NCBI GenBank assembly: GCA_948144175.1
Contig: CANXME010002532.1
Coordinates: forward strand, 1-64,000
Direction: 5' to 3'
Source: Closterium sp. NIES-65
Lineage: Eukaryota > Streptophyta > Zygnematophyceae > Desmidiales > Closteriaceae
DNA length: 64,000 nucleotides
Under the pieces are notes generated by a model, which saw nothing but the letters and a program-made list of their open reading frames with translations, was not told the DNA's origin and did not search any database. The position numbers were made by a program, and so were the translations under genes. Below, piece after piece: positions 2,991 to 59,900 of the stretch (position 1 is its first letter; every line of letters begins with the position of its first letter).

Positions 2991-3349
2991 GAAGGCTCGC
3001 TCTACACCATCAACCTATGCTGATGATGATGAACCTGGTGGGTGCTATGCTATGTTGGGGAGTGTATCCAAAAGGTCCCTCCGTCAACTCCTTCCTCTCC
3101 AAGTGACCGAAAACGCTTTTGCCTTAAGCGTATAGCGTTTATCCGCTTGCGTATACATGCAAAACGCTATACTCTAGCAAATACGCTATACGCTCGGGAG
3201 TTTTTCTCTGGGCAGCCCAAGGTGAAAATTTTCTGGAATATATAGAAATCTGCCGTCTTTCACGGCGATCATTTCGCGGTGGTCGAAATGCTGCTCATCG
3301 GAGATCTAGGGTAGCAGGAATGTCACTTCAATGTTTCGATTCAGGTTGG

Positions 3350-6300
3350 GATGATATACCTCAGCCGACGAAAAAACGCCGCCCAATTTCGCGGTCCAGA
3401 AAGGGACAAGGGCCCCCCTCGGGATTGACGAGCTCGCGACGACCTCCGAGCTCCAAGCTGGGCCCAAATGGCGTCCCAGGGGCCTCGGGGAGCCCTCGGG
3501 AATGTCGACAATCCGACGACATACGTTTGCGCTGGGAGATTCCTGAGAAGTAAATCTCAGCGGACAAAATAGGAAAGCTCGCCACGTTGAGCCGCGACTG
3601 CCGCCACGCGGACCAATAGGGGGGAGCCGGACCGTCCCCACCGTGTACTAGGCTGCCACGACGTGGCCGTCGTGGCCACGCGTCGCCCCAGCGGTGATTT
3701 TCCCAAAGCGGGAAAACATTCACACCTTTGAAAAATGGGCCAGCTCGATCCACGCGGCAAAAATCGGACCGTCCAGGATGTAAATCTCAGGAAGTAAATC
3801 TCAGCGGACAAAATTGGAAGTATATCTCAGGGTCGTGTGGCAGTTGCACGACCCTGCGGGTTGTCGAAGTCCTCCAACCACGCCGTCGCCTGTTCCGCGA
3901 AGGTCTTCATCGTCTTCCACGCTTCGTCGAAGCTGCCGGTGATGTTGCCCGTGATTGTCTTCGACATGGCCGCCGTCGCGTTTCGCAGCTGTTCCGCCGC
4001 ATACTTCTCGGTGTCGTCGACCTGCTCGGCCAACTCCTTCACGTGGTCGACGAGTCCACGTATCCCAACAAAAACCTGTCCAGCCGAGCCTGCTCCGCAT
4101 CGAGCAACGTCGCCAGCCGAGCGTTCTCCGCCTCAACAGCCATTTCTCCCTTCGCACCTGCTCGACGTCGTCCAGCTCATTACCGGCCGATCAAGCGTCC
4201 CCCGTTCTCCTGCACGCCCGTGGTGTTCGCCGCTTCGCCGGCGTCGACCCACCTTCCCACCTTCGCATGCCGCCTCCTCCTGGCCCTTTTCCGTCATTGC
4301 CTCCCGACCCACCTCATCCTTCTCCTTCCCCCCATCTGCCGACTCGTTTTTTACCCGCACCCTCTCCTCCGCTTCCTCGTTTCTATCATTCATCCACGAC
4401 CCCACCGCCTCTACTGCAGCTTCCTCCTCTTCGAACACTCCCCTACGGCTACCATCACTGCACCCCCACTCCTCCACCTCCTCCTCCTTCCCGTCCCCCT
4501 TCCCATCCTTCCCTCCCTCCCCCCTCCTATCCTTCCTTCGCCCACCCCTCCCCCCGTCCCCCTTCCCTCATCCTTCCTTTCCCCTCCCCATCCTTCCCTT
4601 CCCTCATCCTTCCCTTGCTCCTCCTCATGGCCGTCATTCCCTCTCGTCCTTCTCCTCCTCCTCCTCCCTCCTCCTCCTCGTCCTCGTCCTTCCGCTTCTC
4701 CGCCTCCTCCTCAGACTCCGACTCCGACTCCGACTCCGAATCCTCCTCCGAATCCTCCTCTTCCTTCCTTCCTCCACCTGTCGCAGCGTTGCCTCCTCCA
4801 CCACCGTTTCCTCCTTCCGCGGACACCTTCGCGTCCCCCGATGCTGGGCGGAAACTGCTGCTTGGGGCGCCGTCTGTCTTTCCGCGCCATCGTCATCAAT
4901 CACACAGTCAGCGGGTTGTGATGTCGGCGCCGCAGAGCGTTTTTCGGCGATGCGCTTGCAGATGTACTCCACCATGCTGTCCTCGCAAAAAACTTTAGCC
5001 CCTTTGTCTTGATGTTCTCGAGTCTCACCGCACCACGACCCTTCTCGCCCGTCAGCAGGTCAACCTGCTTGGCCACCCACCCGAACGACGTCGCAGCAAG
5101 CATGCCGGTGCCGACCTTCTCGTCCGACACACTGTGTGTCTGGCACTTTCTGCATACAACACCGGCAAGCGCAGAACATTGTGAGCGGAGCATACAGAAA
5201 CGTGCACCCTCCTTAATGGATAAACGTGCAACGTGCAACTCACGTCGCGGATAGGGTGGTCGCAGTCGGCAAGCCTGTCCTCCACCACTGCTTGTGATGG
5301 CGGTGCCCCGTCCCACTGCCTACCGGGACGCCCCAGCTCGGCAAGACTGCCGTGCGGAATAGCTGGAGCATCGTGGTAAAGGAAGGCGGTCAGCATGTGA
5401 TACCCTGGGTCGGCGACTAACAAGCGGGAAATCGACGACTATTCACAACTTACTTCAGCACGCGGACGGCCTCGTCGCGGTGCTTCAGTTTCCCGGTATG
5501 CGGGTCGATGTGCCGGATCGAGGTCCTGCAGACCTGTCCCTCAGCCTTCAGCAGATCTCCTGGGTAGAGGATGGCTATGACGCTGCAGTGTGACCCTGGA
5601 AGCGGACCGCCGCTGCACATGCAATACACGACGGCGTCGACCACAACATTAGGCGATGATGCGACCGACTAAACAAAACGATAACTGGACAACGGGGAAA
5701 CAGCTCACGTCGTGCTTAACGGATGGCGGCGATGTCGGCGTCGAAAACCGTAGCAAAGCAAGAATGGTCTGCGGCCTTCAAGGCCGATCGAAGCAGGCCG
5801 ACTCCGATTACCCACAACTTCTGGTCGTTCAGTTCATTGCGAAACCAAGCGTACCTGGGCGCACGAGTGGGCATGAGGGATGATGGGATGGCGGGTAAGC
5901 AAACGCTACCAGATCGACGCTTGCTATGCCGACCGACGTCCATGGACGGGGTCGCGACAATCTGCGACAATCCGCCCCCGACGGCGCCGACATATACTTT
6001 ATGCGCCCATTTAGAGGAAGTCGGCGCCGATATCCGCCCTATTCTCCAACCGCGACTACTCGAGTCCCACCTGATGGCGAATCCCAAGCATCTGTCGGTG
6101 AACTCTTTCTTCTGGTCGCGAAGGGCGGCGAAGTCGTCCCACTCGAAGGTGAAGCTGAGACCGCGACCCATTCGGTGTCTAAGGGGAAAGTCAGCCCAGT
6201 CGGCGCCGACTTCTCGGCGTCGGGGATCGGCTCCATATCGACTAAGGTACGATAGCACGGATCTAGGGGGAGGCGCAGAGCTGTCTGGGAAAATGAGAAA

Positions 6301-7008
6301 AGGAGAAAATGAGGAGCGAAGCCACCTTCCGCAATGAAAAGGGGGTGGGGCCGTTCAGCATCGCCCAAGGGTGTGGGGCCTGGCTCGGTAGGGCTCGGAG
6401 GGCGCATGCGCTAGTGGCACAGGTGGTCCGTCTCCGCCCTGGCAGAGCGACGACCTCGCGTCCATTGGCCCAGGTCGGCGAGGGGACGCACAACTCGCCT
6501 GCGCGCGGAGCGTCTCTAGGGCCGACACGTGTCGATTTTCGTAGCGGATCGCGGTGGTAGATGCGAGATGTTTTAATTTCGCATCGTCCGAAATTTCGCA
6601 TGCGCGCGCTGCGAAGCCACGGGCGAACACGTGGCGCGACCGCAACGGGTCGCGAAATTGTCGAGTGTCCCGAGGGGGCCCCGATTTTTCGCCTGGCCCT
6701 CGCCTGCCCGTCCGGTCAGGCCGCGATGGGTTACTAGGACCTCACGGGCAGGTGGCACGTGTGGGCTGCCTTCGCGCGAGGGTAATTTTCCCACGCGCGA
6801 GTTGTCGCCAGTTCGCCGACCCCACCCGGTAACGTGGGCCGCTGTTCACTTTCGGAGCGGGGCTGCGGAGCGGCGGTCGTGCGCTCGGCCCAGTCCTGGG
6901 CCAGGCTGGCGGGCCCGCACGCGCGTCAGTCGCACGCCTCGTCATTCTCGGCTCCGACGAACCCCTTCGACGACACTGGCAAAACCGTTCCGACGACCGA
7001 ATTCCGAT
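3350..7008 (-). mobile_element. Internally deleted Crypton-like element (copy A), antisense to copy B
   Basis: Both ends match the 10.9-kb element at 45.34-56.26 kb. The end at 3350-3500 carries TATACCTCAGCCGACG followed by AAAA, then CGCCGCCCA and TTTCGCGGT, matching the complement of 56220-56261. The end near 6740-7008 (complement ...CGGAATTCGGTCGTCGG... then GACGCGCGTGCGGGCCCG) matches 45341-45470. Pieces of the first gene remain between. The entire recombinase gene is missing: the similarity jumps from the coiled-coil region near 3837 straight to the terminal region. A near-identical sequence containing GTAAATCTCAGCGGACAAAA occurs at about 3541-3572 and again at 3787-3817, inside the distal end. 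Confidence 0.75.
3837..6230 (-). pseudogene. Remnant of the Crypton-element plus-strand gene (copy A)
   Basis: Segments match the exons of the 46175-51531 gene in order. Exon 1 corresponds to 6207-6073 (shared ADFPL, GRG and RCLG). Exon 2 corresponds to 5817-5719 (shared CFATxFDADxA). Exon 3 corresponds to about 5610-5450 (shared PGxHCSV, PGDL and RTSIRHxDP). Exon 4 corresponds to about 5345-5250 (shared RLADCDxPxRD). The start of exon 5 lies near 5180-4950, the acidic Ser/Glu tract at 4830-4530, and the coiled coil at 4042-3837 (shared FAEQA/FAELA and DDPKG/DNPQG). Reading frames are interrupted and the C-terminal half is gone, so this is a dead copy. Confidence 0.7.
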
Positions 7009-7583
7009 GAGGCTTTCGGAGTTGCAATTTCGAATTTCAGGGTTCCACCTCTTTGAACCGAACCCAATCTACGAACTCCAACCTTTCCAGTACGTCCCCT
7101 CCAAACACATCGTTGCTCGTCAGATCTACTTCACGTTCCCTCCCCCGTCCGTCCCTCCCCCATCTGTCCATTCCACCTAGTCGCTCACTCCTAGTATCCT
7201 ACGCGATAATTTCTACTGCAGTTCCAAGCCGCCATCTGATCTCACACAGGATAACAATAGGCCACGTCCTCTTCGTGAGATTAGGGAGTACCTTCCCGAT
7301 GTTGAGCACGAAGTCTTTAAGCATTTCGCGTCATAGGGGAAAAAATGAACTGAGACACAACCTCCGTGAATCCCCCCCGTGAACTATACCTAGGGTGTTT
7401 TTTTCACCCTGCCCGGGTTATTTTTACCCTGCCCGAAAAAGCGTACTCCTGGATTCGGGACCTATGCGTATAGCGTATATACGACACGCGTATATACGCT
7501 AAACGCGTATATGGTCACTTAGCTTCCTCTCTTCCCTAAGTTGAAATCACTCTTGAGAATTCTCAAAACAGGTTAGGTGGGTT

Positions 7584-26860: not shown

Positions 26861-26861
26861 G

Positions 26862-40300: not shown

Positions 40301-42823
40301 GCTCATCTTCCCTCGAAGACATGAGTCACATGGGGGTTTGAGAGGGTTAGTCTTGTCGGATATGGTGAGCCCTTCAACATCACCATTTCGAAATGTTGCA
40401 TCCATGGATGTGTATGATGGGTGACCCAAGCGCTTGTGGGCCATGCGGTATGTGATGGATGCATGCGCTGAAAGTGGATTCGGCTCTTTATGACCATGAT
40501 CATGCGATGCGTCTTCTTCAAGGGAATGGTCAGATCCATGGGCAGGTGCAAGTGCAGGCTCATACTGCACCATGAGCACACCATGCATGATCATTCCAAC
40601 CCCAATGACCACATGCTCATCTTCAACCGCCATAGTAATCTCCGTGCGTCCGTCATCACGAGTGCGAATGCGAGCCCCTTTCGTGTGCAGCTGGCAATAG
40701 GAGAGCAGGTTGGACCTCAAGCCAGGTACGTAGAGCACATCCGTGTAGCGCACTATTGTTCCATCGGGTGTCGTTGCTCGGATTGTTCCCGTCATTGAGC
40801 TCAACAAGTGGCTCCCGTCAGCAAGCTCCACGTAAACAGGTTCGTCCAGCTCCTCTAGACCCTCAAACCACTCTTTTTCTGAAGTCATGTGTTGGCTGCA
40901 TCCGCTGTCCAGCAACCACAGCGACCCTCCGGGTGTTGGTAACATTGCTTGTGAGGATCGAACCGTTGCAACGCATGTAACGGTGCGTTTGTTATCTCCC
41001 CCGGCTGCCCCTTGCTGTTTTGACGTTTGGTTGTCACGTTTGGGGCTTTCACTCCTTCGAGGCGAGGACGAACGGCTATTCCAGGTGCGTTGGTTTGTCC
41101 TCCCTTTGTTTTGTGGTTCCCACCCTGGTGGTGACCAACCCGGGGGTGCCTTAGAACATCTGTAGAACGGGTGGCCAGATTCCTTGCAGTACCAACACAC
41201 AAGGTTGGAGCGCCCTCCCCTTCCGTCGTTGGCCTTGGGTTTCTCCCCAACCGCACTCTGGTTGCCCTTTGTCTCGGTCCTCTCCTTTGCTGGTGAAGTA
41301 TCTCCACGTGCTTGGCCAGCCATGCGCGGAGGACGCTTGTCACGGTTGGTCTTGCTAATGAGGTCTTGGTAGCGTTGTTCCTGAATCATCATTCGCTGTA
41401 GTGTGTAGCTGTCCGAGATGTCGTGTAGCATTGCCGAATGTCTCAGCTCCTCCCAATGCGGCGGCAGCCCGGTAATCAGATTTAAAGTGAACGAATCTTC
41501 ATCCACCATCTTTCCCGCCATCGCCAGCTTGTCTCGAATTGCAGTTGCTCGGTTGATGTATTCCTCCACTCTTTCTTGGCTCCCCATCTTCAGGTTGTCC
41601 AATTGCCTCTGGAGAGACGCCTTTGCCACCGAATCCTTCGCCTGGTAAGTCTCCATCAGGTACTCCCATGCTTCGAATGCCGGACTGCATGACTCTGGAA
41701 ACACGTCCAGTTGCAGCTGAATCGTTGCGCTCACGCTATGTAGCAGTACCCAAAAAGCCAGCGTAGCTCGTTGTGAGTAATCTGCTTGCAGAACTTCCAG
41801 CCGTTCCATTGCATCTCGCATGTCTCCATTCGTCATTGTAACCGGGTATTGTAGTGTCACGAAAAACTCCCACAGATTTGTCACGCGCGCGTTCATGCGG
41901 AATCGAAGAGCCCATTCTCGAAAGTTAGTGCCGTCGAACGGGGTTGTTGTGAACGCCTTGTCCACCGCTGCTCCCACCATCTTGCGTGACAGCCTGTCTT
42001 TGTCTTCTTCGGTATACTCGCGAGGTGACGGGTCGAAGAGTGTAGGCACGGTAGATGGTCGAGGTAGTTGCACTGTGCGTTGTGTGCCTTCACGTTCCAC
42101 CACCTCCACTTGGTCACGTCGCATAACTCCACTTGATTGCATCCCGTGCCCCATGCGTTCGATGTTTCCTGCAGGTACTGCTTCTGGTTGAGACCATTGC
42201 GCACGAGGGGGTGCGATGTTGCCATAGAGGTGAGATCTGCCCGTTATGGGAACTCCAATGGGATGGGAGTTAGTGGCAAGTCGGCGTAGTGGGGGAGCAC
42301 CAATAGTGTAGGATTCGAATCCCACACCTTCCATGCCCACATGACTGCTTCTACCGCTCCCTTCACCAATCTGACCTCTCATGTTTCTTCCCACATCAAT
42401 CCCATCACCATGTTCTCTCTCATCCCTTCCACTCCCGTACTCATCATCCCTCCCCGTTGCTTCCCTTTGCATGGTTGGTTGAGGTTCGGGGTGGGAGCCC
42501 CCCTCTCCTTGGAAGGATGCATCCCTCCCTTGGGACGACTCTCCTCCTTGGGGTAGGCTTCCTTCCCCTTCACCTTCAATTCCTGCATCCACATTTGAAG
42601 TGCGGGTTTGGTTAGCACGCGGAGTGCTTGCATGTGACTGTCCACGGATGGATGGGTTGTTGGAATCTCGAACTTGGGTTGCCATGTTTAATCTTGCTCT
42701 CAATGATGCTTGGAGTGTCGGTGGTGCCCTTGCGATCATGTTTTCCAGGTGCTCATGTTGAGCCAAGATTGCTTCTTCGAACGCCTCGTATCCAGCATCA
42801 ACTTCCTCATCGAACCGTGCCAT
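37364..42823 (-). CDS. Intact Ty1/copia gag-pol polyprotein, 1819 aa
   Basis: One open frame. A gag core of the UBN2/Retrotran_gag_2 type covers residues about 280-480. The zinc knuckle CWYCKESGHPFYRC is near 550 and the aspartic protease LLDSGCS near 645. The integrase HHCC region (HKRLGHPS...CDSCLRGK) precedes the DDE core, with HSDIMDLG, TDNGGEY and QQNGVAERVNR. RT carries DISNAFL, YGLKQAPR and YVDD. RNase H carries GYTDSDYAN, STAEAEY and FVDNQSA. All catalytic residues I can check are present, in contrast to the copia-1 family here. A copia element normally encodes everything needed for its own reverse transcription and integration. Confidence 0.95.
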   Translation of the reverse strand: MARFDEEVDAGYEAFEEAILAQHEHLENMIARAPPTLQASLRARLNMATQVRDSNNPSIRGQSHASTPRANQTRTSNVDAGIEGEGEGSLPQGGESSQGRDASFQGEGGSHPEPQPTMQREATGRDDEYGSGRDEREHGDGIDVGRNMRGQIGEGSGRSSHVGMEGVGFESYTIGAPPLRRLATNSHPIGVPITGRSHLYGNIAPPRAQWSQPEAVPAGNIERMGHGMQSSGVMRRDQVEVVEREGTQRTVQLPRPSTVPTLFDPSPREYTEEDKDRLSRKMVGAAVDKAFTTTPFDGTNFREWALRFRMNARVTNLWEFFVTLQYPVTMTNGDMRDAMERLEVLQADYSQRATLAFWVLLHSVSATIQLQLDVFPESCSPAFEAWEYLMETYQAKDSVAKASLQRQLDNLKMGSQERVEEYINRATAIRDKLAMAGKMVDEDSFTLNLITGLPPHWEELRHSAMLHDISDSYTLQRMMIQEQRYQDLISKTNRDKRPPRMAGQARGDTSPAKERTETKGNQSAVGEKPKANDGRGGRSNLVCWYCKESGHPFYRCSKAPPGWSPPGWEPQNKGRTNQRTWNSRSSSPRRSESPKRDNQTSKQQGAAGGDNKRTVTCVATVRSSQAMLPTPGGSLWLLDSGCSQHMTSEKEWFEGLEELDEPVYVELADGSHLLSSMTGTIRATTPDGTIVRYTDVLYVPGLRSNLLSYCQLHTKGARIRTRDDGRTEITMAVEDEHVVIGVGMIMHGVLMVQYEPALAPAHGSDHSLEEDASHDHGHKEPNPLSAHASITYRMAHKRLGHPSYTSMDATFRNGDVEGLTISDKTNPLKPPCDSCLRGKMSKAPFPTGSTNATTRPLELVHSDIMDLGDAHPYLRYVLTLKDDYTNYLWVAPLARRSDMAAVFSAWHREMKTKLPKMPLATLRTDNGGEYTSNAFTDYLSSHDINHQTSLPHTPQQNGVAERVNRTLMDRVRAMTTGASLSSKFWPYALEYAAWLHNRISCSSNPSAHSPYFMMMGKAADVSMARTFGCLCYYRPPQGSFGKFEQRGRAGMFLGLSNSRKAWIVRDLASDVDTDTRSARFFDDLMLPDAESLLERQRYIDEVSPHISEWTSGGEDVGSAFDSFPASLTSSTSSDVATAEQHGPTTNDAAQEDPPAATEADTGEATAESDLPAAGISVCENADNNEPENEGHLYNYAYPPNGIPLAAPDVPPRRVHFNPTVIVLGGEGQGTDNMTGLDVLFGRRQAGQTFTRFPNVQQQNVLGCATTGVPMVELTYKEPKTLQDMTKDPYAPLWQAAVDAELAKFDELDAYEVVDRADVPKGTLVLTEGVVLRVKRDERGQPNRFKARWVVKGCGQTWGTYDGTYAPVSQGPTSHVFVAGASATKRKVVQLDISNAFLYAPIDRDIYVRPPEPRRDGDKVWKLKRSVYGLKQAPRLWHQHLRGVLLELGMVQSESDPSLFIWTRDGKDTVWLLTYVDDILIQSHDAEGIEAVIQHLKQNFTLTVSKSMTQFLGLNVATDNDSIALALTKYISQALATFGMEGSRSGVRTPIAKEPEPQGEPPDEIDGQLVLKQVGTLLYISTAGRPDITHATHVLATQASKPTAATVLGIHRVFNYLQSTADMGLVYGGDLVLRGYTDSDYANEEGRHSVGGYVFTLGGAAASWRTKRQTVIATSTAEAEYIALFEGAREATYLRRLCEDLGFRQQEPTVIFVDNQSAIALATGEQMSQRIKHMDIRYHWTRKAVRDGVVRPEYCPTAQQAADYLTKPLTAKQHLTCRLLCGLQPIPHVAPSAPSTHIEAAGAALSSPGFSRGAEQHGIT

Positions 42824-42930
42824 GACTTCACACCAAATGTTGCCACTTGCTGTGCAAGGTTGCTAATCTGCTTAACCAACGAAGATAATAAGCGTCCTGA
42901 CGAAATTTCGGCAGCATGCCCCCTAGAGTT

Positions 42931-44805: not shown

Positions 44806-46174
44806 TGAAATGAGCTACTAGCGCGTACTAGGTGTGGAGGGAGACTAAGACTCGGAGTAAACCCACTGTGAACGTGACGGGAAGTTTGGAGGCCGTCGTT
44901 TACCAAATGACTACTTGTATAAATGTGGCACTTCACCTATACCCCAAGCACTTGGGGCTCTGATCCACATTGCAAGTGAGTGCAAGGCCTTGACGTGCAA
45001 CCTGAAGCAGCGAGAAATGAGGTGAGGGCCGTTTGAGGAGGGGGGGAAAGGGAAATTATACGGGCGCTATGGCAGTGGAAGATGGAAAGAAACACGGTTG
45101 GAGGTGAAATGAGAAATGTCGAGAAAGGAGTTGACGAGGGGGAAGTGTTAGGTTGGACCAGGCGTGGTCCACAAGGCACGGTTTTTCGGACTTGGGGTAG
45201 GCTCGAGGAAGGAAGAATCTCGCACCCAACTCTTCGTTCAAGATTTGTAAAACTTGGCATGGGTTCACTTTCTCTTGGCGTGTACAAAAATCAGCACGCA
45301 GTCATATTTTCTGTACCAGGAGAACTTGCTGAAGATCCCAGCGGAATGAGGTCGACGGAATCGAGTTGCCAGGGTCGACGAGGGGGGTCGACGGACAGGG
45401 GTCTGACGAGGCGGGCGAGTGACGCGCGTGCGGGCCCGCCAGCCTGGCCCTGGGCTGGGCCGGGCGCACGACCGCCGCCCCGCAACCCCCCCCCCGAGAG
45501 TGAACAGCGACCCACGTTACCGGGTGGGGGCGGCGAGCTGGCGAGACCTCGGGCGAGGGGAAGTAACCCTGCCGCGAAGGCAGCCCACCCCTCCCTCGTG
45601 CCCGCGAGGCCCTAGTAACCCATCGCGGCCTGCCCGTACGGGCAGGCGAGGTCCACGCGAAAATCGGGGGCTCCCCTCGGGTCGCTCGACAATTTCGCGA
45701 CCCGTTGCGGTGACGCCACGTGCTCGCCCGTCATTTCGCATCGCGTGCATGAGACATTTCGTACCCCCCGAAACTCGAGCGAAAACCTGGGTCGTTCGCC
45801 ACGGGGCGCACGGCTTTCGCGACCCTCTGCGAAATCGACACGTGGTGCCGAAACGTCGCACCGCGCCCACGCGAAGTTGCGTCCCCTGGCCGACCGAGGC
45901 CGGGGCACGTGACGTCGACCTGTTGGCTCGGCGGCGAGGGTGCACTTGTGCCACGCAACTTGTGCACGAGCCCTGCCGAGCCAGGCATCACGGCCCCCTG
46001 GGCGACGCTCAACCGGGCCTGCGTGGCTCCGCCTGGCTTTTCTTCGTTGGAGGTGGACTGGCCCCTCATTTTCGCGTTCTCGTTTCTCTTTCATTTTTCC
46101 TCCCACCTCGGCGCCTTCCATACTCCCACCGCTTCTTCCCTTAGCCTGTAGCATAGCATCCTCGCTCTCCCGCC

Positions 46175-49100
46175 ATGGCAGCCGGCCAGAAAGCCGCCGA
46201 AGCGGCGCCGACCTCGCTAGATTTCCCCCTGCATCTAGACATCGGTAGAGGACACACGGCCAAGTTCGAAGAGCACGACTACGCCGTTCTGACAAACCCT
46301 ATGCTAGAGTTTAACGCCCGTTGCTTGGGACTCGGTCTCAAGTGAGTGTCTTATTGAGATGTCGTCGTCGACGGGCCTAGTCCATGCTGGTCGGCCATGG
46401 CGGGGTTTCAATGCGTCCAGTAGTATATGTCGACGGGCTTAGAGTTCAGGCACATCACATCGGTGATGCCGACGTAATGCGTTAGGTCGTCGACGACGCT
46501 GAGTTGTGCCGAAGTCGTTCGGCTCCCGTCATTCCACCGTCGTGCCGCGCACCTATACCTCTCTAATCTGTTGTAATCATGCATGCGTGCAGGCACGCAT
46601 GGATCCGCTCAACGGATGCAGGCGAGCGATTGTGGTCGATAGGAGTCGGCCGGCTTCGGGCGGCGATGGGTCAGGACGACCACACATGCTTTGCGACGAT
46701 TTTCGACGCCGACGTGGCGGTTATCCCACTGATATCGAGGTGAGCAGGTTCGAGGTCCTGCTGTGTGCTGCAACCTGTGTCGGTGATTTGTTCTGAGCGC
46801 CATCGACGTGCCTTGTCTGTGCAGCATCGCACCGCTTCCGGGAGCACATTGCAGCGTCGTTCTCATCCTGTGCCCCGGCGATTTGTTCAATGCCTCGGGG
46901 CAGGAGGTCAGGACCTCGATCCGGCACGCCGACCCGCAGACAGTGAAGGAGTGGCACCGCGACGAGGCGATCCGCGTGCTGAAGTGAGCTCGATAGTTTA
47001 GTCGACATCGCATACATTGTCGACACGACGCGTGCACCGTGCTAACCGACCGTCCTTGCCGTGCTTTTGCAGGTTTTTCCGGACCGCTGTTCTGGCCGAG
47101 CTGCGGCGCGAGGGTAGGAAATGGGAGTGGGCGAAGCCGTCCGAAGACGAGGTGCAGGAGAGGCTCGCCGACTGCGACGAACCCCTTCGAGATGTGAGTT
47201 ACGGACGATTCGCCGTCATATGGTGTCACATCTACGCCGCCCTCATCCTTGCTCTCTGCACTGTTGTATGCAGAAAATTCCCGATACCGTCCGGGACTCG
47301 GACGCGGGCTCCGGCCTGCTAGCAATGAGCGCGTTGATCTGGGTTGTGAGGCGGTTCCAGCGCCTGACCGGCGACCTCCGTCGCATTGCCACCAGCATGG
47401 ACAAGCCCACCGTCTCGGGGTTGAAGGCGCTGCGGAACGAGATGGTAGCCCTCATCAAGAAGCAAGTCCCGCTCATACGGTCGGGGAAAACCGTTGTTGC
47501 TGCCGACGCCTGTGACGACGACGGCGAGGAAGTCCATTCTGCATCCGTACCAGTAGGGGTCGCCCCGAACGTCGCTGATGCGCGTGGCAAGTCGGGAGTC
47601 GGCGTCGACGAGGCCGATGCGGCCGCAGGAAAGGGGGTGACCGGGACCGAGGTTGTTCACGGGGATGATGATGGGGTCCAGGATCGCGAGGAGGAACGTG
47701 AGGGTGAGGGGGGCTCGGAGGAGTCGTCGGGGTCGATGTCGGGGTCGAGGTCGGGGTCGGGATCGGGCTCGGAGTCGGAGTCGGAGGAGGAGCAGGAGCA
47801 GGAGACGCAGGAGCACGAGAGGCAGCACCAGGAGGAGCAGTTGGTAGAGGTGGAGGACGTGGAAATGGCGGAGGGGTACGTTGTCGGAGGAGCGGAGGGG
47901 TACGTTGTCGGAGGAGCGGAGGAAACGGGTGGGAGATCGGCGGATGTCGAGAACGACGAAGGGGAGGGGAAGGGGGCGACAGCGAATATCGGCGAGGTCG
48001 GCGTGGAGGCGGCTCACGGAGGTGGTGGCATGGTCGAGGTCGGTGAAGGGGATAACGCCGCGGTCCCGGAGCAGAGGGGCGTGGATGTGCATACCGATGC
48101 CACCGCGGAGAAGGCCGGCGGGGAGCGGTCTAGGAGGAAGAAGGCGGCGAGCGGTCATCCCGGTTCCACCGCGGCTGGGCGGCAGGCGCGGCTGGACGTC
48201 GTCGATCAGCTGAGGGCGGAGAACAGGCGATTGCGTGCAGACAATGCACTCCTTGAACGGCGGCTCGGTGAGCAGACGGGGCGGGTCGACAGCTTGGCGG
48301 CGGCATTAGCTGGGCTCCTCGAGAAGTTGAAGGGTTTGACCGCCCAGGTCGCCGACACCGACCGGAAATCGGAGGAGCGCCTCAAAGAGGCCACGTCGAC
48401 CATGGCGACCACAATCACCGAGGGCCTCACCGACAACATGGACAGCGCCATTCAATCGGCCAAGTCCTTCGCCGAGCTAGCGAGGCAGACGCTGCTGGAT
48501 CTTGACGACCCCAAGGGACGAGCGGCGGTCGCACGCGCGACCGCGGTGAAGACAGTGACCGAGCACGTGACGGCGGAGGTGGGCGAGGCGAGGAAGGGGT
48601 TGGAGGAGTCGTTCATCAAATACATCGGCGCCGCGCAGACCAACATTGCCGCCGCCGTCGCGCCCCGCCTAGTCCAGCCGCCGCCGCCTACCGGCCCAGC
48701 GCAGGCCTTGCCGGAAGATTTCCTGAAGTCTTTCAAGGAGGACGTGCTGAAGGCGGTGACGGAGACCACGCAGCAGTCCTTCCTCGCCTCCGGACTGAAG
48801 ATAATGGCCGAGGTCGTCGGCACGGTGGCGTATGCTCGGCGTGGGTCGTCGCCGTCGGCAAACGACGCCGGCCAAGCGCAACCTACGGAGGGCTTGAAGC
48901 TGGGTCACAAGAGGCGGGGAGGCGGCGGGGGGGGCGACGGGGACAATTTGGCGAACACGAAGCGGAGCAAGGGAGGCGGGGGGTCTGGCGGTGGGGGGGG
49001 GGACGGAGACGATTCGGCGGGCGCGAGGCGGACCAAGGGAGCGGCTGGTTCTCGCGTCGCCGGCGATGGGAGCATGGGAGCCGGCGACGGCAGTTCGTTG

Positions 49101-51531
49101 AAGCAGTCGGGGAAGAGCGTGGTCGACATCCTCAGGAAGCACTGGGCTCAGGTTGGAGCGGCCAGCACGGTCCATGGTGGTGGGGGTCCCGCCGACGAGC
49201 ATGCCACTGATGACGCACTGCCAATGGCTCCGCCTTCGGTCGGCGTTAAGCCACCACGACAGGGTAGCGGTGTGAAAGGCCTGCGCGACAAGGAGAAGGC
49301 CGCCGCCAAAACGGCCCCAGGCGGGTCCGCGAAAGCTGGCCAGGGCCCGAAGACAGGGGTTGCGGAGGCGTCAGCGGTTCCTCACCAGTCTCCCGCGGGT
49401 GCACGCCATCCGACCGGACCGTCTGCCGGGCGACCTACCGACGTCCCGCGCCATGCCGACGTACCGTCTGCCGACAAGGTTGGCCGCGCGGGAAAAGGGG
49501 CGGCAGTTGCGGACGCGCTCAAGGAGCAGCTCAGGCTCCTAGCCGGCCACAGGGCTGTTCAACAGGCCCCCCCTGCTGTCGACGTCCCATCGGCCAGTGG
49601 GCCACGTGTAGTGCCGGTCGTCGCCGCCCGTACTCCTGCAGACCCAAAGTCCGCGTTGTTGCGCGCCCAGCTGGGCGCACTAGCGTCGACTGAGAGGACT
49701 CAGCAGGCTTCTGGCTCTGGCTCTAAGCCGTCGTCGGCGAATGTCGCACCACCCACCCATGTGGCAGCTGATGTGGAGAAGGCGGCGGAGAAGGGCGTTC
49801 GTGCCGCGCTTGCCACCGGCGGCGGCGCCGTTGAGGAGGTCCCCGCAGACGCTGATATCGCTGCCATACAGGCCCATCTGGATGCAGCCAATCCCCGAAC
49901 CCTGGCCATCTCCGACACGGAACATGTGGAGCCTTCGGCGGGACTCGTCGGCATCGCGGCAGAGCCTAGTGCGACCGGTGATGCGGTCGGTGAGGGAAAG
50001 TCGAAACGGAAGGGGAAGGCGGGCTCACAGAGGAAGACGCGGGAGAAGTCGGAGGTGAAGGCGGCGGATAAACAGAAGGGGATGGCGGCGGAGACGGCGG
50101 CGGACAAAGATCGAGGCGGCATTGGGGAGGTTGAAGGGAAAGGGGAGAATCAGAAGTCGCCCGGCGAGGGTACGTCGACGGGGAGGAAGGGGAAGGACAA
50201 GTCGGTCGGAGAAGGTGCGTCGACCGGGAGAAAGGGGAAGGAGAAGGCGGTCGGCGAGGGTTCCTCGAAGGGGAGAAAGGGAAAGAGGAAGGCGGAGGAG
50301 GAGGATGAGGATGTCGAGGAGGTGGAGGAGGTCGAGCAGGAGGAAGAGGAGGAGGAGGAGGAGGAGGAGGAGGAGGAGGAGGAGGAGGGGAAGGGCAAGG
50401 AGAGGAGGGGTCATGGCATCCGACACGATACCTCGGGCGACAAGCAAGGGTGGGTCGGCGAGATTAAGGTGCACGGCATCAATCGATACATCGGCAAGTC
50501 GCGGGACAAGATGGAGCTCGCGTACGTTCACTCCATCGCGTACGTCGTCTACGACGGTTTCGTGAGCAAGGTGCTCATGACCGAGCTCACCGGCTTGGAC
50601 AGCGCCGAATTGGAGAGGTGGAAGGAGGTGTGGGAGGAGGTCAGGATCTTGCCGACAGGGATGTGGACGGTGATGTGGGCCCGGGGTACGCTCCTTCCAA
50701 AGACACGGTAAGTCGGCAATCCTCCGATTCAAAGTCGATGTCGTTGTCGTTGTCACTCATGTTCGCCCTGTTTGTGGTGGCGTGACAGGCTGACGGAGAT
50801 CCTCGACGCGTATCGCCATTACAAGTCCACAGGCGATTGTCTCCACGCCGCGCTCCTGCCAGCGATATGGTACCCAGTCGATGCTAGCACCGAGGAAGGC
50901 CGGGAGAAGTCGGCGTCCATGATGTCGGCGATGATAGGCCGCGTGTCAATGTGCGCTGCATATGGGAAGACCGCTGCGGCAGCGGCGAAGAAGGAGGGAG
51001 ACAAGGAGGAGAAGACGGATATGGCGGCATGGGCGTTAGCAGCATCCGCATGCGCTGTGTGGTGCTTCGTCGAGAACGGCGATGCCCAGCTGGCGGATGC
51101 TGTGGAAGAAGGGAAGTCGGCGGCGATCATCGGCGGAGCGAGCCAGGCGACCGCCGATGTATTCGGAAAAGTCATGGAGGCGGTGCTGAAAGCCGAGATG
51201 AACAGGGACCGCCCCTTGGGAGAGGTTGCCTACAACGTCGCGCCAGCACTCCAGAGGACCGCCCTTGATACGGTATATCCGGGGGGGGAATGCTGGAGTA
51301 GATGCCGACGTTATCGCTAGAGCGACGGTTGAGACGATGGCGTTTTGGGGAATGTGCCCCGTCGCCGGGCCGAAACTAAGAGCGAGGGACATCGCGGTGC
51401 CGATTGACGCGCAGATGAAGGCCGATCTTGACAACAGGGGGAGGAAGGGTCTGAGGGGCAAGAAGGGGACGAAGACCAAGGGCGGCACGGAGAAGGTCAA
51501 GAAGTCGAAGAAGGACAGCACGACGGCCTAG
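46175..51531 (+). CDS. Crypton-element accessory gene: acidic coiled-coil protein of unknown function
   Basis: Six exons join in phase: 46175-46341, 46593-46739, 46825-46983, 47073-47193, 47274-50707 and 50789-51531 (stop TAG). The model needs one base removed from the G8 run near 51281-51288; with that it is about 1589 aa. N-terminal exons encode a compact unrecognised domain (CFATIFDADVA, CPGDLF, RTSIRHADP). Exon 5 has Ser/Glu-rich acidic tracts (47700-47900) and a predicted coiled coil (48200-48500; QLRAENRRLRADNALLERRL). A Lys/Glu tail follows, including a poly-Glu run at 50330-50390. A segment after it (GWVGEIKVHGINRYIGK, then AYVHSIAYVVYDG) faintly resembles an AP2-type DNA-binding domain. 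No homologous host protein is recognised. Because copy A carries the same gene, it belongs to the element rather than being a captured neighbour. Confidence 0.78.
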
Positions 51532-51867
51532 TCGACGGCATGCTAAGATTGAGTGCTGCGTGGACTCGATGATGAAATGGTCGATACCGTTTTCCTTGTT
51601 TTGGCTGTCGGATCCCTTTGATGCTCTTTGTTTGTGTTTTTTTTTGTGCGTGCCTGTCTACTTTACGTAGGATGAGTAATGAACACATTAGCTAGTAATG
51701 ATTGTCTACTTCAGTTTGAACGACACGTGAATGCCCCGCTAGGCCGAGAACAACAGGATCATTGAGAGAAACAAAAAGTCGACATCAGTATCAGTATGAA
51801 ACATAGGCATGCTGCATCAACATCTACAACATGCAACAGGCCACAGTAGCAGGAGGCCTGGGAACAT
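51532..51867. other. Convergent 3' ends between the two Crypton-element genes
   Basis: 336 bp of AT-richer DNA between the two stop codons, presumably holding both polyadenylation sites. No conserved signal is certain. Confidence 0.5.
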
Positions 51868-54800
51868 TCAAGCGGTTTTCTTGCGCTTGGTCGACTTATT
51901 GGTCGGAGGCAGCTGCCCGGCGTTGTTTTCGCGGGCCAGGTCGGCCAACGTCTTCTTCATCTGCTCAACCCAGGTGTCCGGGAACAGGTCGGCGACCCAC
52001 GTTTCGGGCTTGAGCCCGCGCGCCACGAACGCACAGGCGACACGAAGCTTGGAAAATTCCGTCTTGCCGAGCCCTTTGACGCCCTTACCCTGCCCAGCAT
52101 AGGTCGCTACGGCGTCCGCGTTGAGCACCGTGAGGGCATCCGCGAAGGTCCCAATGCCAGGCGCCGCTATCTTGTTAAGCGCGTCGACGGTGGCTTCCGT
52201 GTCGGCTTTGCCGTCGCTCCTGCGAAGCTGGCGCACCGCATCGATGACCTTCATCATGCGGCGCACCCTCGTCCCGTGTGCTCCCTGCGAGGCTCCGTCG
52301 AGGAGGGTGTGGCGGTCGACGAATCCCGGCTCCCTGAACCTGTCGCACAGACGACGGGTGTCGGCGCTGGTGCACGAGGTCCAGAGGCGCCACGCGTCCT
52401 TGACGGTCGTTGCAGTCCGCCAAGGCTGCACTACGTTCAGCTCGTAGCTAGCCTCCTCGACCGTCTGTGGGGGTTTATTGGGTTTGTTGGCTCCTCCACC
52501 CCTGCTTGCCGACTCCGCGGAGCCACCGTCGCTCGGCGACTGGTCGTTAGCAGCTGGCGGCGCCTCCGGCATCCTTCGAGCTTCTGAAACGCGGAGAGCC
52601 TCGGTGAGGCGTGTTATCTCGGCCGCGAGCGACGCGATGGTTGCGTCGCGATTCTCGATCTTCTCCTCGAGGTCGAGCTTCTGGACCGTTGACCGCTCCC
52701 TCTCGAGCTTAAGCGTCTCCGTGAGGGAGACGACCGCGAACTGGGCGTCATGGCGGACCGATATCTCCTGCAATGGTATGCGAATAACGGTGCAGATGAG
52801 GGGTTGTAGCGGTCATAGATAACATCGCGACGTCGGCATAAAAGATGACCTACCTCTGGCTGGATGAGGGTTGGATCTTGCCGGTTTTTTATGGTGTCGG
52901 TGTCGGTCTTCTCGACCCTCTTCGACCAGTGCTGGAAGAGGGGAATCCGGCAGAGCTTGGAATACTGGATGTACGGGTGCCAAGGGGTGCGGACGAGTTT
53001 CACCGCGAGGTCCTCGGCGACAATGCGGCGGAACATCAGAAGGGTGCGCCAGAAATGCACGGCCGCAACGTCGGCGTCGGACCCCTTCTTCGCGAGTTCT
53101 TCTGCCTGCAGTTAGACATCAGACGGGGGTTATCTCCATGGTGGATAGGACAGTACCATGCAAGATTGGTCGGCACCGATAAACAAACCTTGTTGAGGAG
53201 GTCGTCGACGTCGGGGAAGATGTGCTCGGCGATGAGAGCGAGGAGTTCGTCTCCCGGTTCCACCCTACTGCGACCCAAGAAGTAGTCCTGCGTGAATCCC
53301 GAATAGCCGGCCTTCTTCATCACCACGCCGACGGGAATGGACGTGATGTAGGCTCGAGTCATCTTGTCGAGAGCCCAGTGACCCAGCTCGGCTATCTCGG
53401 CGCGAGGCGTACCTTGGATGGCCAACTCCTGCGCCCCGCCCGCCCGAGCGGCATGGACGTTCCGCTTGCAGAACACCCCGTTCGTCTTCCACATCTGCCT
53501 CGTCCATCGCTGGTGGCTGGGAGCTGAGAGTTCGCCCTGCTCGGGGTCGTTGCGGGCGAAGAACAGGTGCTTCTTGTACCAGAGCTCGCGTGTGCTGGTG
53601 TCGACCGACGGAATGAGGTCGACTCCGTGAAACTGGCCGATCTGGTCGAGGACGAAGTGTAACCACAGCCCGGTCTCGCCGACGGCGCACAACTCCGCTT
53701 CTAGGTGCCGCGCCGCGTAGCTCTGTTGAAGACGCGCATCCTTCGACGTCTTCGAGTTCCGCGCGGCGACCACCATGACGACCGGCTGGTTATCCGGGTT
53801 CACCGACGAGGTGCTCGCCAGTCGGTACAGGAAGATGTCGGGGAGCGTTATCTCGCGTATGCTTGCACCGCGCATGAGGCTGTGGTGGGAGAGCAGCGTG
53901 AGCACCTTGATGAGAAGAAACCTCCACAGCGTCTGCGAAGGTGTGGTGAAATGCGGGCTCCATGCCGACGCCGCCCAAGCCGGCAGCACCCTCGTCATTA
54001 TCTGGCGGAACTGTTCGGCGGTGTATGTGTCGCCGATGGTGCCGCGTCGACGGTCGGCGCATTTACTGTCGACATAACAATATATGGATATGAATATTAG
54101 GGCGAGGAAACAAATCGATGGCGACATAACACGGCGATGCATGCCAACTTACTCGAGGTCCCTCTGATTTTTCGTGCGGACCATGACCCGCACCTCCGAC
54201 CGGACCACCGAGATTTCCCGCATGATGCCCAACTCCTTCTCCTTGAAGAGCGTCGCCTCCACCCTCGCCGCCATCTGGCAGGCCTTGATGCGGCCGAGGA
54301 TCATGTGCACCGTGTAGGCTCGCACTGGCTCGTTCGTGTCGGCGTCGATCCTGTACTCCCGCCTCATGAACTTGATGTAGGCGCGCAGTCGCGTACTAGT
54401 GACCCGGGGGCCGTGCAGCCATATGTGCTTCCGCTTGACCACCTTCTCGTTGTCCCAATCCTTGCTCTTGTTGTTGTGTGTCCAGTGCCCTATCTCGTCG
54501 ACGTGCCTCATTTGTTCTGCTGTCGGCAGTTTGTCGCCAATTTTTTTAAGCATCTTCGCCGTCCACCTTTTGTAGTCGTATATCCATGAGGTGTAGGACT
54601 TGAGCGTGCTCTTGGCCTCTATGGTTTTCAGGTGGCGCATTCCCTCCATCACGAGCACGTCGACGCACGCGTACACCATATCTTCCTCTACGAAGTCGGC
54701 CGCCTTCCACATTTCTCGAGGGACCGACGTGTGCAGCAGATCCTCAAGCTCGTTCTCGTCCAACAATTCCTCTATGAACGCACGTTCCCCCCTGAGTTTT

Positions 54801-55207
54801 TCTTCCAACGTGCGCGGACCTGCACCACGTCGGGGCCGCGGGTCGTCTTCGTCGTCCTCGTCGCTCGCCGATGAATAATCGTCCTCATCCTGGTCGCCCG
54901 ATCCGTCCGGCACAGACGACGGCCCGGCCTCCCCTGCATCCGTCGGCGTCGACGTTTTGCGTGGTTTCGTGAACTCCCCTATCGGCGCGGGCGGAACGTC
55001 CTTGGTGAACTCTCCCTGCGGGATTTGGGCCAGGGCGTCGAGATCGTAAAGCAGCGGCAAAGTCGACGAGGGGTTACTGGTCGGTGTACGGTCTACCGGG
55101 CGGACGTCCTCATCCTGGCTAGCGGGGTTCATGACGTCCGTCATGTCGACATCGGCGGGGGGTGGGTTGGTTTGCGGCGGTGTCGAACGAGGCTGTCCTC
55201 TGGCCAT
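51868..55207 (-). CDS. Crypton-type tyrosine recombinase (Ndc10/GCR1_C-like), 1027 aa
   Basis: Four exons on the minus strand join with GT/AG sites and matching phase: 55207-54153, 54065-53189, 53105-52854 and 52767-51868, total 3084 nt with no internal stop. Exon 1 has an acidic N-terminus and a likely core-binding domain. Exon 2 carries the catalytic domain: LMRGASIREITLPDIF with the first Arg, HAARAGGAQELA (the HxxR box), LGHWALDKM (the third box) and the nucleophile Tyr in AYITSIP. These match the layout of the Ndc10 domain II/Crypton recombinases known from fungi. Exon 4 adds a coiled coil (LKLERERSTVQKLDLEEKIE) and a Lys-rich end suggestive of nuclear targeting. The expected role is cutting and rejoining DNA to excise and insert the element through a circle. 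The complete frame suggests recent activity. Confidence 0.87.
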
Positions 55208-56261
55208 GATACCGCGACCTAGGGCGATAGGAAGTCGGCGTGGTGAGGTCGATAAACTACTTAATGCGTATTCTATGTCGGCGGTATCTGGCAGGTCGGG
55301 ACAGCAGACAATCCTACGAGAGGTCGGCGACCACGTCTGCCTACTATCACGACGCCGACGTTACGCCTCTAGAGAAAATCAAAGTGCCGGCCGTCAAGTC
55401 AGTGGTAAAAAAAAAAAGCAATGGCACACACAATGGCAGGCGGAATGAGCGACCATTTCGGGGACCACGGATGGGGATGGTCGTGAGCGACTCCGCACCA
55501 CTTGGCGCTCCACGCAAACCCCAGTGCACGACGCCGCCATGCATGTACGCTCGTGCGGCGGCGCCGTGTCCGACGTGCCACCAGGCGTGCATGGCTGCTT
55601 GCTTGAAGCGTTTCGCTCATCATGCTCTTTTCGTGGCTGCTACACGCTGGCTCTTTCGTGCGGCAACGTGGCGTGGTCCCGAATTAGGTGCACCTCGGTA
55701 GGTCGAGGTCGGGAGACACTGCCGTGTGGCACCACGATGATGCTCTTCTGGTCGACGCCGACAGGACCCGCATCATCAGTGTCCACTGCACGTAGCCATA
55801 GATAGTGGACGGCCGGATTTCTCCTTGCGCATGTGAGCAACCGTTGGATGAATGCCGTGTGGTATGCACCGACATTGCCACGTTCATGCGCGAGATTCTC
55901 CCAAGCGAAGCACCCCGACCTTCCGTTGGCCCGTCGTGTCCAACCTGGCAGACCTAGGTGGCCCCGCCATCCAGGGGACTATCTCGGGCGTCCCTTTGTG
56001 GCCGCGTGGCGATCATCGCGGCCCAACGTGCCGAGCTGGTATTCTGACACGCGGCTGAGACGTCCTTCTCGGGATTGTCTCAGCGGAACTCTAGGTCGAC
56101 AGGTGGTCGACCATCCCGAGGGCTCACCAGCACCTGGCCCAGCCAGATAGCCTGGGCTTTCCACGCGGAGGTCGTCGTGGGGTCGTCGACCCCGAGGAGG
56201 GGGGTTGTCCGTTCTGAACCGCGAAAATGGGCGGCAGTTTTCGTCGGCTGAGCTATATTAT
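55208..56261. other. Non-coding right end of the Crypton-like element
   Basis: Presumed promoter region of the recombinase gene plus the terminal sequence. The last 300 bp align with the complement of 3350-3600 in copy A (shared CCTCGGG, CTCAGCGGA and the CGCCGCCCA/TTTCGCGGT end). An A11 run lies near 55410. Confidence 0.6.
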
Positions 56262-56911
56262 GCTAGACCCGCCATCGGTTCCAGACTCTGTCCTAACATC
56301 GCCCTCGACCGATTGCAATATTTCCTAAACACAACCCTCGGTTAGCTGCAATACACATGGTGTTATTTTCACACCCTCCAATTTCACTTCCCTGTGTATT
56401 CGTTCCTGATTTACCCGGAAATTAAGGGTTGTTTTCAAAAATTTTGGCTTTAAGGAATTAGCGATTCAAACAGTCTGGCCTGAAGGAATTAACGAGTCAG
56501 TGGGAAAATTAAAACATGGTTTCAGCGGAATATCCAGTGTTTACGTTGCGGTCTCAAAGTCACACTTTCACAACATCGACACTTTACAATGCCACGGATA
56601 GCCTCTAGTTCCTTGGGTGTCTGATCCCCAAAGCCAAAGAAGGAACGCTAGTTTGCCACAAAAAAGGTCCCAATCTCGGTTTAAATCTTGGAACTCTCGC
56701 ATACACGTCTTTCGATGGAACCAAGAAGAGTGGGAAAATTCACTTGGAAGTAGCTTCCCGAGTGCCTCCTTCGTTCTCGATCTTCGAGTGCCTTGAAGCA
56801 GGAGGAACGGAGTGCCTTGAAGCGTGAGGTGTGTCGAGTTCGCTGCATGTTTCGCGAATAGTAACGCGCGTGGAATCCACGTCGCTTATCTTTCGAAGTT
56901 AGTTCGTCCGT
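56262..56911. other. Upstream region of SecA, no gene seen
   Basis: AT-richer unique-looking DNA between the transposon and the SecA start. It should contain the SecA promoter and 5' UTR, but no clear TATA element can be assigned. Confidence 0.5.
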
Positions 56912-59900
56912 TTGTTTGCAGTGGCTCTAATGGAGCAGCTCCATTTTCCTCGTCTAGATTCGGGCTTGACGAGATCGAAAATCTTAGACCCCCATGGAAC
57001 GTCGGTCCTGAGGTGCATTCCGACAAAATCCTCGCGTTCTAGTTCCGCGATTCTCGCAAACCGCGATTGTCGTGTCTCTAGAGGCTCACCAGTCAGAGCT
57101 GGCGGAAATGGCTCGCTTGGTCTTGCAGCTGGTTCGTGTTTTACGTGCCTCAACCTCGGGGATGTTTCTCGACGACAACCCTTGTCGATTGGTCTCGCAG
57201 ATGGGTTAGGTGCGAGATTAAGTTACGTTGCTCGTCGCTTTCCGTCGCAGTCCGTCGCAGCAACTGTCGCACGAGCTAGTGTAGGCGACTCCTCGCGATC
57301 GTCCAGTCGGGCGAGGAGAACAGCAGCGCCGGCGGCGACTGTAGCGGCTGCACGGCCAGCTCTCGCCGCTGCAGTTGCGTCGCAACGGACAGCAGCACCA
57401 TCTGTAGCGGCGTCTGCAGCATCATCTGTAGCAGCATGTACAGCACTCCAAGCAGCTGCGGCTGTAGCAACGGCGGGGAAACCCCAGTCTCGAGCGCCAA
57501 AAGCGCCGACCGCGCGCAAAGCAGCGATCGGGGAGGTGCTTGGGGGGATATTCGGCGCAACGAGCCCCGCGGAGAAGACACGTCAGCAGTACGCAGAACA
57601 GCTAGCGCGGGTTAACCGTCTGGAGGCGATCGCGTCGCGACTATCGGACGGCCAGCTAAGAGGAACGACTAGGGACCTGCAGCAGAGGGTTGCTGCTGGG
57701 GAGACCCTTGAGAGTGTGCTCCCGGTATAGTCACTTTAAAGTATGCCTTTCTTTTCTAGAGTGTGCTCTCGGTTCGTCAACTTGAGTGGGACGACCAGAG
57801 ACCTGCAGCAGAGGGTTGCTGCTGGAGAGACCCTCGAGAGTGTGCTCCTGGTATAGTCACTTTGAGTAATAACCTTTCAAGTGTCTGCTCCCAGTATAGT
57901 TGCCATGTATGACGTTTCTCTAGAGCGTACTGCTACAGCTTACCCACCCACTTGCTGCTTTCCCTACCTGCTGCTTTCCGTATTCTTTCTAACTTCCCCA
58001 CTCTGTGCTGCGACTTTTCACATGTCCCTTCCCACTGGCAGGAGGCGTTTGCTGTTGTGCGCGAAGCTTCCAAGAGAGTTCTTGGCCTGAGGCCGTTTGA
58101 TGTCCAGCTCATAGGTACACCCAAATACTTGCCGCTCATCCCAACAACCATCTCTTCTTGGTAACGCTCTGCTGAAGAGGCCTCTTCTTATCACCCCTCT
58201 TCTTGTTTGACTTGACGGTTCTTCCTTCCACACCAGATCATTCCTTTCAAGTTGTTAAGAACCTCACATTCTCCTAACCCTGATGGGCCGCACTTACCTC
58301 CTCCTTGTTTCCGCGTGTTTGGTTTTATGATTTTGTGCCACGTGGCATGTGGATGCCTGTGAACATGCCAGGTGGCATGGTGCTGCATGACGGGCAGATC
58401 GCTGAGATGCGGACGGGGGAAGGCAAGACGCTGGTTGCTGTGCTCCCTGCCTACCTCAACGCGCTCACAGGTGTGTATGTAGGGGGCGTGTTTGTATGCA
58501 CGCATAGACAGAGGAGGCATGGTGCTGCGTAGACAGAGGGGGCATGGTGCTGCATGACGGGCAGATCGCTGAGATACGGACGGGGGAAGGCAAGACGCTG
58601 GTTGCTGTGCTCCCTGCTTACCTCAACGCGCTCACAGGTAAGTGAGTGTGTGAGTGTGTGTGTGTGTGGGTGTGTGTATATGTGTGTGTGTGGGTGTGTG
58701 TATGTGTGTGTGTGCGTGTGTGTTATGGTGCATGGTGCATGGTGCATGGTGCATGGTGCGTGGTGCGTGGTGCGTGGTGCATGCGCATATGATTTTTCAG
58801 TCAAAAGCCTGCCTCGCTCGTACAGGTTCGTCTATCTACATACCTTATGAGGCGACTCAAAAGTCACCTCGTACAGGTTCGTCTATCTACATACCTTATT
58901 CCTCTCTACGCTTGAACCCTATCGGCCTCCTTCCTATCAACCCCCATCTCCTTCCTTTTCTCAACGTCCTTCACTCTCCTTCCTTCCCAGGCAAGGGCGT
59001 GCGTATGGGCGAGTGAGACCCCTCCTGGGAAGTGCGTATAGTGCGTATGTGCACTATTCTTTTTGAGCAACCGCCTTCGCTCTTAAACCACTCCGCCCTC
59101 CCTCCTCTCTCCAGGCAAGGGCGTGCATGTGGTTACAGTCAACGATTACTTGGCTCGCAGGGATGCCGAGTGGGTGCGGTGCGGCAGGTCCCTAAATTGC
59201 ATGTCTCTGTACCTGTGTGGCTGCAACATAACATCATATCGATGTCTCTCCTCCTTCTTTAACCCCCCCGCCCTCGCTCCTCCCCAGGCAAGGGCGTGCA
59301 TGTGGTGACAGTCAACGATTACTTGGCTCGTAGGGATGCCGAGTGGGTGGGGCAGATTCACAAGTATCTCGGTCTGTCTGTCGGCCTCATTCAACGTAAG
59401 CGCCTCCTTGTAAGCTTCTATCTATTTAACCACTTGCTTGCTAGCCCCCCACCACTGCCCCGCTCTTCTTTTTGTTACATCAAAGCCCTTTTCACCCTAG
59501 TTATCAACCCTCGCAAACCGTGATTCATGAAGCTGTTTATTCTTAGCCTTGCAGAGGGCATGACGGCGCAGCAGAGGAGGGAGAGCTACGCGTGCGATGT
59601 CACATACGTCACCAACAGCGAGCTTGGATTCGACTACCTCCGAGACAACCTTGCCACTGTGAGTCTAGTTGACTCCAAATTCACCTAGTGGGGAGGGAGA
59701 GCTATGCGTGTGATGTCACATGCGTCACCAACAGCGAGCTTGGATTCGGCTACCTCCGAGACATTCTCGCCACTGTGAGTGTTTCTTCTCATGCGAGCAT
59801 GCATGCATGCTTGCTGCCATTGTGAGAGCCTGCCTTCCATTTTAATCGCACTAACTTTTATCGATTCCCTTCCTTCTCTTGCCATCCTTTACCCTCCCCC

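Follow-up and report, generated by a model that had tools for sequence, protein, structure and literature searches.

Cryptons are known from fungi, animals and stramenopiles, the last represented by oomycetes and a diatom (Table 1 of PMC3212892), and their copy number is mostly very low (PMC3212892, section 17). They have short terminal repeats, and a circle that enters the genome by conservative recombination at a short core has been proposed for them (PMC3212892, sections 3 and 6). A Crypton with two genes is already on record, since CryptonF-2_PS encodes an extra C48 peptidase (PMC3212892, section 6). Here we describe an element of about 10.9 kb in a stretch of 64,000 nucleotides from Closterium sp. 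NIES-65 (GenBank assembly GCA_948144175.1, contig CANXME010002532.1, positions 1 to 64,000), hereafter the window. The element encodes a tyrosine recombinase of the Ndc10 type and, convergent with it, a second large protein. We regard it as very probably a Crypton-like DNA transposon that inserts as a circle, its second gene acting in an accessory capacity. Closterium is a single-celled alga, and its class is the closest to land plants; the green-lineage host given by the first-pass annotation, which had been made from the letters of the window, was thus correctly named.

The minus-strand gene is a complete frame of 1027 amino acids spliced from four exons with GT-AG introns, just as the first-pass annotation had read it. 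All four boxes on which that reading of an Ndc10/Crypton order was built could be located, LMRGASIRE at residue 415, HAAR at 556, LGHW at 579 and AYITSIP at 590. The protein possesses the catalytic set R-K-H-R-H-Y and with it the R-H-R-Y required of Cryptons. The Pfam family NDC10_II matched residues 406-679 with an E-value of 2.2e-14 and 53.7 bits, well above the cut-off of 26.3. Recombinases of this kind are best known from fungi.

Relatives of this protein came from Closterium in all of the 120 listed out of 168 matches and in 105/105 matches to its core; both of our protein searches scored about 8000 candidates, required shared 5-mers and were bound by length, so that distant homologues can be missed. 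The full RKHRHY pattern was present in 90 of the 120 listed homologues, partial gene models counted. The remaining 30 showed a gap or change at one or more catalytic positions, often stemming from a partial gene model. The 62 residues that precede the first catalytic arginine were nearly missing from 63 of the 120 listed NCBI gene models and present in 51; we take this stretch to belong to the domain. At the level of the genome, NDC10_II (PF16787) was found in at least 125 places, the window gene and its family copies included (of 325 candidates 125 were scored, and all 125 exceeded the cut-off), as opposed to none of 14 control genomes. Four distant Closterium paralogues with 34-38% identity likewise passed the cut-off. 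A further NDC10_II family occupies positions 2622935-2650531 of contig C1769, where matches lie 10,423 and 10,422 bp apart, a spacing which suggests that this second family also forms head-to-tail arrays.

The extent of the element was set by comparing its genomic copies. When the assembly (874 Mb in 2400 contigs, the window being the start of contig C2234) was searched with 5 kb of the element, 42 matches with 97-100% identity were obtained in at least 31 places, the window counted; this is a lower bound, as 31 of 434 candidates were scored. The sequence common to the copies runs from GAAGATCCCAGCGG to TATATTATGCT, corresponding to 45331-56264 in the window, so that the ends first proposed, 45341-56261, were nearly right, if slightly too narrow. 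We recovered the left end from all 24 loci supplied; of the 23 right ends sought, 19 were recovered, and the four misses probably reflect wrongly guessed positions. From end to end, 17 other copies measured 10,845-10,983 bp, both convergent genes lying inside, and both genes could be aligned in these copies plus the one in the window. The whole-genome search for copies with the same two ends, which the first-pass annotation had proposed as a check, therefore returned the two genes within the common ends. Neither of the findings that it had said would refute its reading, a lack of any Ndc10/Crypton profile match or copies in which the common ends do not bound the two genes, was thus obtained. 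Its argument that the second gene is part of the same unit also holds for the diverged, internally deleted copy in the window, formerly placed at 3350-7008: this copy is real, and it shares both ends along with pieces of the second gene that show 33-64% amino acid identity in the stretches found. A search for the recombinase in that copy recognised nothing, the sole match there having an E-value of 3.6. Both flanks are identical in three copies, on contigs C1873, C268 and C2100, and such copies represent either duplicated chromosomal segments or haplotypes that were assembled separately. A left flank is also shared by C43 and C787, and likewise by the window and C2399.

Insertion sites were compared at 18 distinct places, the window counted. 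Not entered in this count were C268 and C2100, whose flanks are those of C1873, and C43, C687, C1973, C2399 and C787, for which the right end was not found or not fetched. Position -2 was C at all 18 sites, position -1 was T at 15 and position -3 was G at 12, while a purine occupied position +1 at 17 sites, giving the core (G)CT/R(A). The triplet to the left of the element was GCT in 12 of 24 loci and otherwise ACT, CCT, TCC, GCG, CCG, TCT or GCA; this left-side triplet is the target's own. At none of the 18 sites did we see a target-site duplication. The element has no terminal inverted repeats, only short subterminal inverted half-sites.

Some of the copies stand in head-to-tail arrays. Contig C2133 carries three units with a period of 10,851 bp and contig C1780 two units with a period of 10,829 bp; in all three of the unit junctions read on these two contigs, TATATTATGCT is joined directly to GAAGATCCC, the sequence expected of a circle whose ends have been joined. 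Over 6.3 kb, 5 substitutions separate units 1 and 2 of C2133, as compared with 16-43 between these units and eight other copies (one of these a unit of the C1780 array), which points to local amplification rather than to an assembly duplicate. From these junctions and insertion sites we infer a cycle in which the NDC10-type recombinase would excise the element, or copy it, to give a closed circle whose ends are joined as TATATTATGCT to GAAGATCCC. The circle would then insert by conservative recombination at short (G)CT/RA-like sites without duplicating the target, and integration beside a resident copy would produce a head-to-tail array. The convergent second gene is carried inside full-length copies and most likely serves as an accessory factor.

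This second gene consists of six exons. A frame of about 1589 amino acids, as first annotated, does exist in the family; in the window copy, however, it is broken by a run of eight G. Because 7/7 other copies checked have seven G in place of eight (in three the surrounding sequence was matched with as many as 3 mismatches, and three share one flank), the longer run is either a private change of the window copy or an assembly error. The C-terminus of the second gene is open in the database protein P0138. The second protein comprises an N-terminal region, a long, acidic and repetitive low-complexity middle and a conserved C-terminal region. No Pfam family exceeded its cut-off in the first 322 amino acids and a piece of 101 amino acids of the protein, or in its homologues P0138, P0121 and P0132, two weak matches appearing in P0132 only; nor did any NCBIfam family in P0138. 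A structure model averaged 30.5 in the predicted local distance difference test (pLDDT), and fold prediction failed. An AP2/ERF-like domain that we had considered at GWVGEIKVHGINRYIGKSRDKMELAYVHSIAYVVYDG was rejected, as it had no Pfam match and the same model shows no strand there. Most likely, the second protein is an accessory factor of the element that would bind DNA or the circle, or act in regulation.

The second gene is recognisable between Closterium strains, and its listed relatives, too, are all from Closterium. With contigs identified by their lengths, seven of the 11 from outside Closterium sp. Yama58-4 that have second-gene matches also carry listed recombinase matches, a count that is weak alone as many of these contigs are megabases long. 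Yama58-4 itself contributes 8 of the 20 second-gene matches, with P0128-P0135 among the proteins.

Our data support the recent mobility that the first-pass annotation had suggested. Divergence among eight copies (the window counted, and three of them alike in their flanks) amounts to 0.0-0.6% over 6.5 kb. Of 18 copies, 10 have an intact recombinase frame and 8 an intact second gene, the broken second gene of the window copy notwithstanding. The ratio of replacement to silent polymorphism (pN/pS) of the recombinase, 0.67 (47 silent and 103 replacement changes, p 0.027), also speaks for the Crypton-like reading.

Several observations weigh against the interpretation as a circle-inserting Crypton with an accessory gene. 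The terminal direct repeat is imperfect and at most 3 bp long, compared with 4-6 bp described for Cryptons. The circle was not seen directly, nor was any extrachromosomal form, and unequal crossing-over could also enlarge arrays once two copies adjoin. The structure model of the recombinase, with a mean pLDDT of 38.8, is too poor for testing the fold, and searches against solved structures returned no recombinase, their only three matches, to MafG and DotF, being made through the coiled-coil part. The pN/pS of the second gene is 0.76 (59 silent and 136 replacement changes, p 0.081), so that selection on it is not significant within the family; this ratio and that of the recombinase derive from near-identical copies, perhaps with assembly errors, which would push the ratio towards 1. 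No Yama58-4 recombinase occurs among the 120 listed of the 168 matches, nor among the 105 core matches. The two genes perhaps do not always travel together, although the gap in Yama58-4 may be an effect of annotation or length. Finally, GCR1_C, the other profile for which the first-pass annotation had suggested a search besides the well-matched NDC10_II, was not detected in the recombinase (E up to 1). GCR1_C is a defining domain of CryptonF. Because it was not found, we call the element Crypton-like with an Ndc10-type recombinase and not a CryptonF.

Among the other origins that we considered, the one that survives best, though we find it improbable, is a derivative of a PAT/Kangaroo- or Ngaro-like tyrosine recombinase retrotransposon that has lost its reverse transcriptase. 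The second gene would then be a Gag-like remnant, reverse transcriptase would be supplied from elsewhere, and a palindrome within the right end of the element, GCTGAG-N19-CTCAGC, would be the remnant of a split direct repeat. The palindrome has a homologous counterpart at 3531-3561 in the deleted copy, and GCTGAG-N19-CYCAGC occurs without mismatch only at these two places in the window; with one mismatch allowed, there are 5 matches, a count that 11 of 100 shuffles also reached. Its resemblance to the joined ends in both window copies speaks for the retrotransposon origin, the support being modest (with the corrected ends, shuffles reached the score in 22 and 4 of 1000). So does the recombinase gene on the opposite strand, reminiscent of the inverted recombinase of the PAT-like Kangaroo of Volvox, another green-lineage element with an internal repeat, as portrayed in a part of PMC4157794. 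Unlike the retrotransposon Kangaroo, however, the Closterium element has no reverse transcriptase family that we could find, and its second gene keeps its introns: GT/AG is retained at 5/5 introns in 8/8 genomic copies, which argues against copying through RNA. No reverse transcriptase, RNase H or methyltransferase family was present in the sequences scanned. For reverse transcriptase, these were the recombinase and the first 322 amino acids of the second protein (E up to 1), the homologues P0138, P0121 and P0132 (E up to 10) and four frames open in the non-coding ends, three left and one right, where a single chance-level match (E 0.26) belonged to an unrelated family; within the right end, no open frame exceeds 156 amino acids. 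Moreover, the internal repeat is short, and the recombinase coding sequence of the window element contains a stretch that resembles the junction more closely. We make no firm claim of split direct repeats, given that shuffle tests with the ends first used were weak and that this better match lies inside the coding sequence at an offset of about 8240. The palindrome is a candidate accessory site for the recombinase, or else may be what is left of split direct repeats.

We think it very improbable that the copies are by-products of an extrachromosomal replicon, an integrated plasmid-like circle of the 2-micron type whose recombinase would control copy number and whose second gene would provide partition or maintenance. 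Head-to-tail arrays with exact junctions would fit such a replicon, as would the large second protein, in which no known domain was recognised; however, the 18 distinct sites with their consistent short core look like regular transposition, and an extrachromosomal form is, again, what we did not see. A Starship-like cargo element, with the recombinase as captain and the second gene as cargo, is scarcely credible despite a tyrosine recombinase that lies near one end, reads inward and neighbours an unrelated gene, captains being tyrosine recombinases as well and said to move their element by cut and paste, because the recombinase did not match the captain family DUF3435 (E up to 1) and the 17 other copies are near-constant in length and two-gene content, unlike Starships of 15-700 kb with variable cargo (sizes, cargo and captain function as given in a portion of PMC12134995).

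A Crypton-like transposon thus remains our preferred reading, and the comparison with described Cryptons shows in what respects it is new. With CryptonF of fungi and oomycetes the element shares a Crypton/Ndc10-type tyrosine recombinase, the lack of a detectable reverse transcriptase and the absence of target-site duplication. It differs from CryptonF in that no GCR1_C was detected, in its streptophyte-algal host, in its convergent second gene of about 1590 amino acids, in the shorter core match (up to 3 instead of 4-6 bp) and in its head-to-tail arrays. An extra protein beside the recombinase is a feature in common with CryptonF-2_PS of Phytophthora sojae; in contrast to the C48 peptidase of the latter, the second protein of Closterium matches no Pfam or NCBIfam family above cut-off. 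The best reading is therefore that of a new Crypton-like lineage and not of a proven CryptonF member. Of the first-pass proposal that a two-gene version in an alga would be a new lineage, the Crypton-like element in a green-lineage host stands, but two genes are not unprecedented, as CryptonF-2_PS attests (PMC3212892).

Among the titles listed by searches of an open-access library, none dealt with Cryptons of green algae, Closterium and charophytes included, and no paper linking Ndc10_II with an alga was among those listed; the view that such an element is new to green algae rests on these searches. Mentions of Cryptons reportedly occur in publications on a haptophyte, sour cherry, Metrosideros and others. 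Nor do plant annotations lack the label: 535 entries carry it in one table cell of 'An Atlas of Plant Transposable Elements' (PMC8729191). A passage of PMC10407611 lays variation of genome size in the host complex to gene copy number and not to repeats.

We also entertain, as a possible but doubtful extension, that Ndc10-type Crypton-like elements of streptophyte algae form a lineage of their own, diversified into several Closterium families, in which the second protein would be obligatory and serve a circular stage outside the chromosomes, and in which the attachment site, repeated internally, would link Cryptons to the split direct repeats of PAT/Kangaroo. In this alga, whose class is the nearest to land plants, one element occupies 31 or more places and NDC10_II has 125 or more matches. 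Now that both ends, the site where they join and the target core have been mapped and intact recombinase frames identified, the cycle of circle formation and insertion proposed for Cryptons can be put to a direct test. For work on a charophyte alga, the recombinase and its landing site are also a candidate system.

Table 1. Coordinates in the window of the element, its genes and sites, and the deleted copy.
Feature	Position	Strand	Details
Whole element, GAAGATCCCAGCGGAATGAGG...GTCGGCTGAGCTATATTATGCT	45331..56264	.	10,934 bp; ends set by copy comparison
Target trinucleotide GCT left of element (target core)	45328..45330	+	18-site comparison
Terminal GCT of right end	56262..56264	+	GCT in 19/19 right ends found (23 given)
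Tyrosine recombinase gene, 4 exons, 1027 amino acids	51868..55207	-	Spliced frame and profile match; exons 55207-54153, 54065-53189, 53105-52854, 52767-51868
Recombinase exon 2	53189..54065	-	Holds R417, K457, H556, R559, H581, Y591
Second gene, 6 exons, 1554-1590 amino acids in intact copies	46175..51531	+	Convergent with recombinase; exons 46175-46341, 46593-46739, 46825-46983, 47073-47193, 47274-50707, 50789-51531
8-G run breaking second-gene frame	51281..51288	+	About 80 codons before natural end; window copy
Subterminal palindrome GCTGAG-N19-CTCAGC	56054..56084	.	Resembles joined-ends site GCTGAG-N18-CCCAGC
Diverged, internally deleted copy	3348..7017	-	Aligned to window element; both ends kept

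Elsewhere in the window, a Copia retrotransposon lies on the minus strand at 37364-42862, with one frame open over 1832 codons and with gag, integrase and RVT_2 domains. Two Copia-like pieces, at 25808-26833 (plus strand) and 34191-35666 (minus strand), flank about 400 copies of the 17-bp repeat GAGCTTGCCTGGTCCAG, which extend over 26859-33706 in two blocks of opposite orientation that meet near 31235. A SecA preprotein cross-linking domain is encoded at 61933-62703, and a tandem array of 3.6 copies of a 144-bp unit at 59900-60414 reads like what we take to be a SecA helicase motif.

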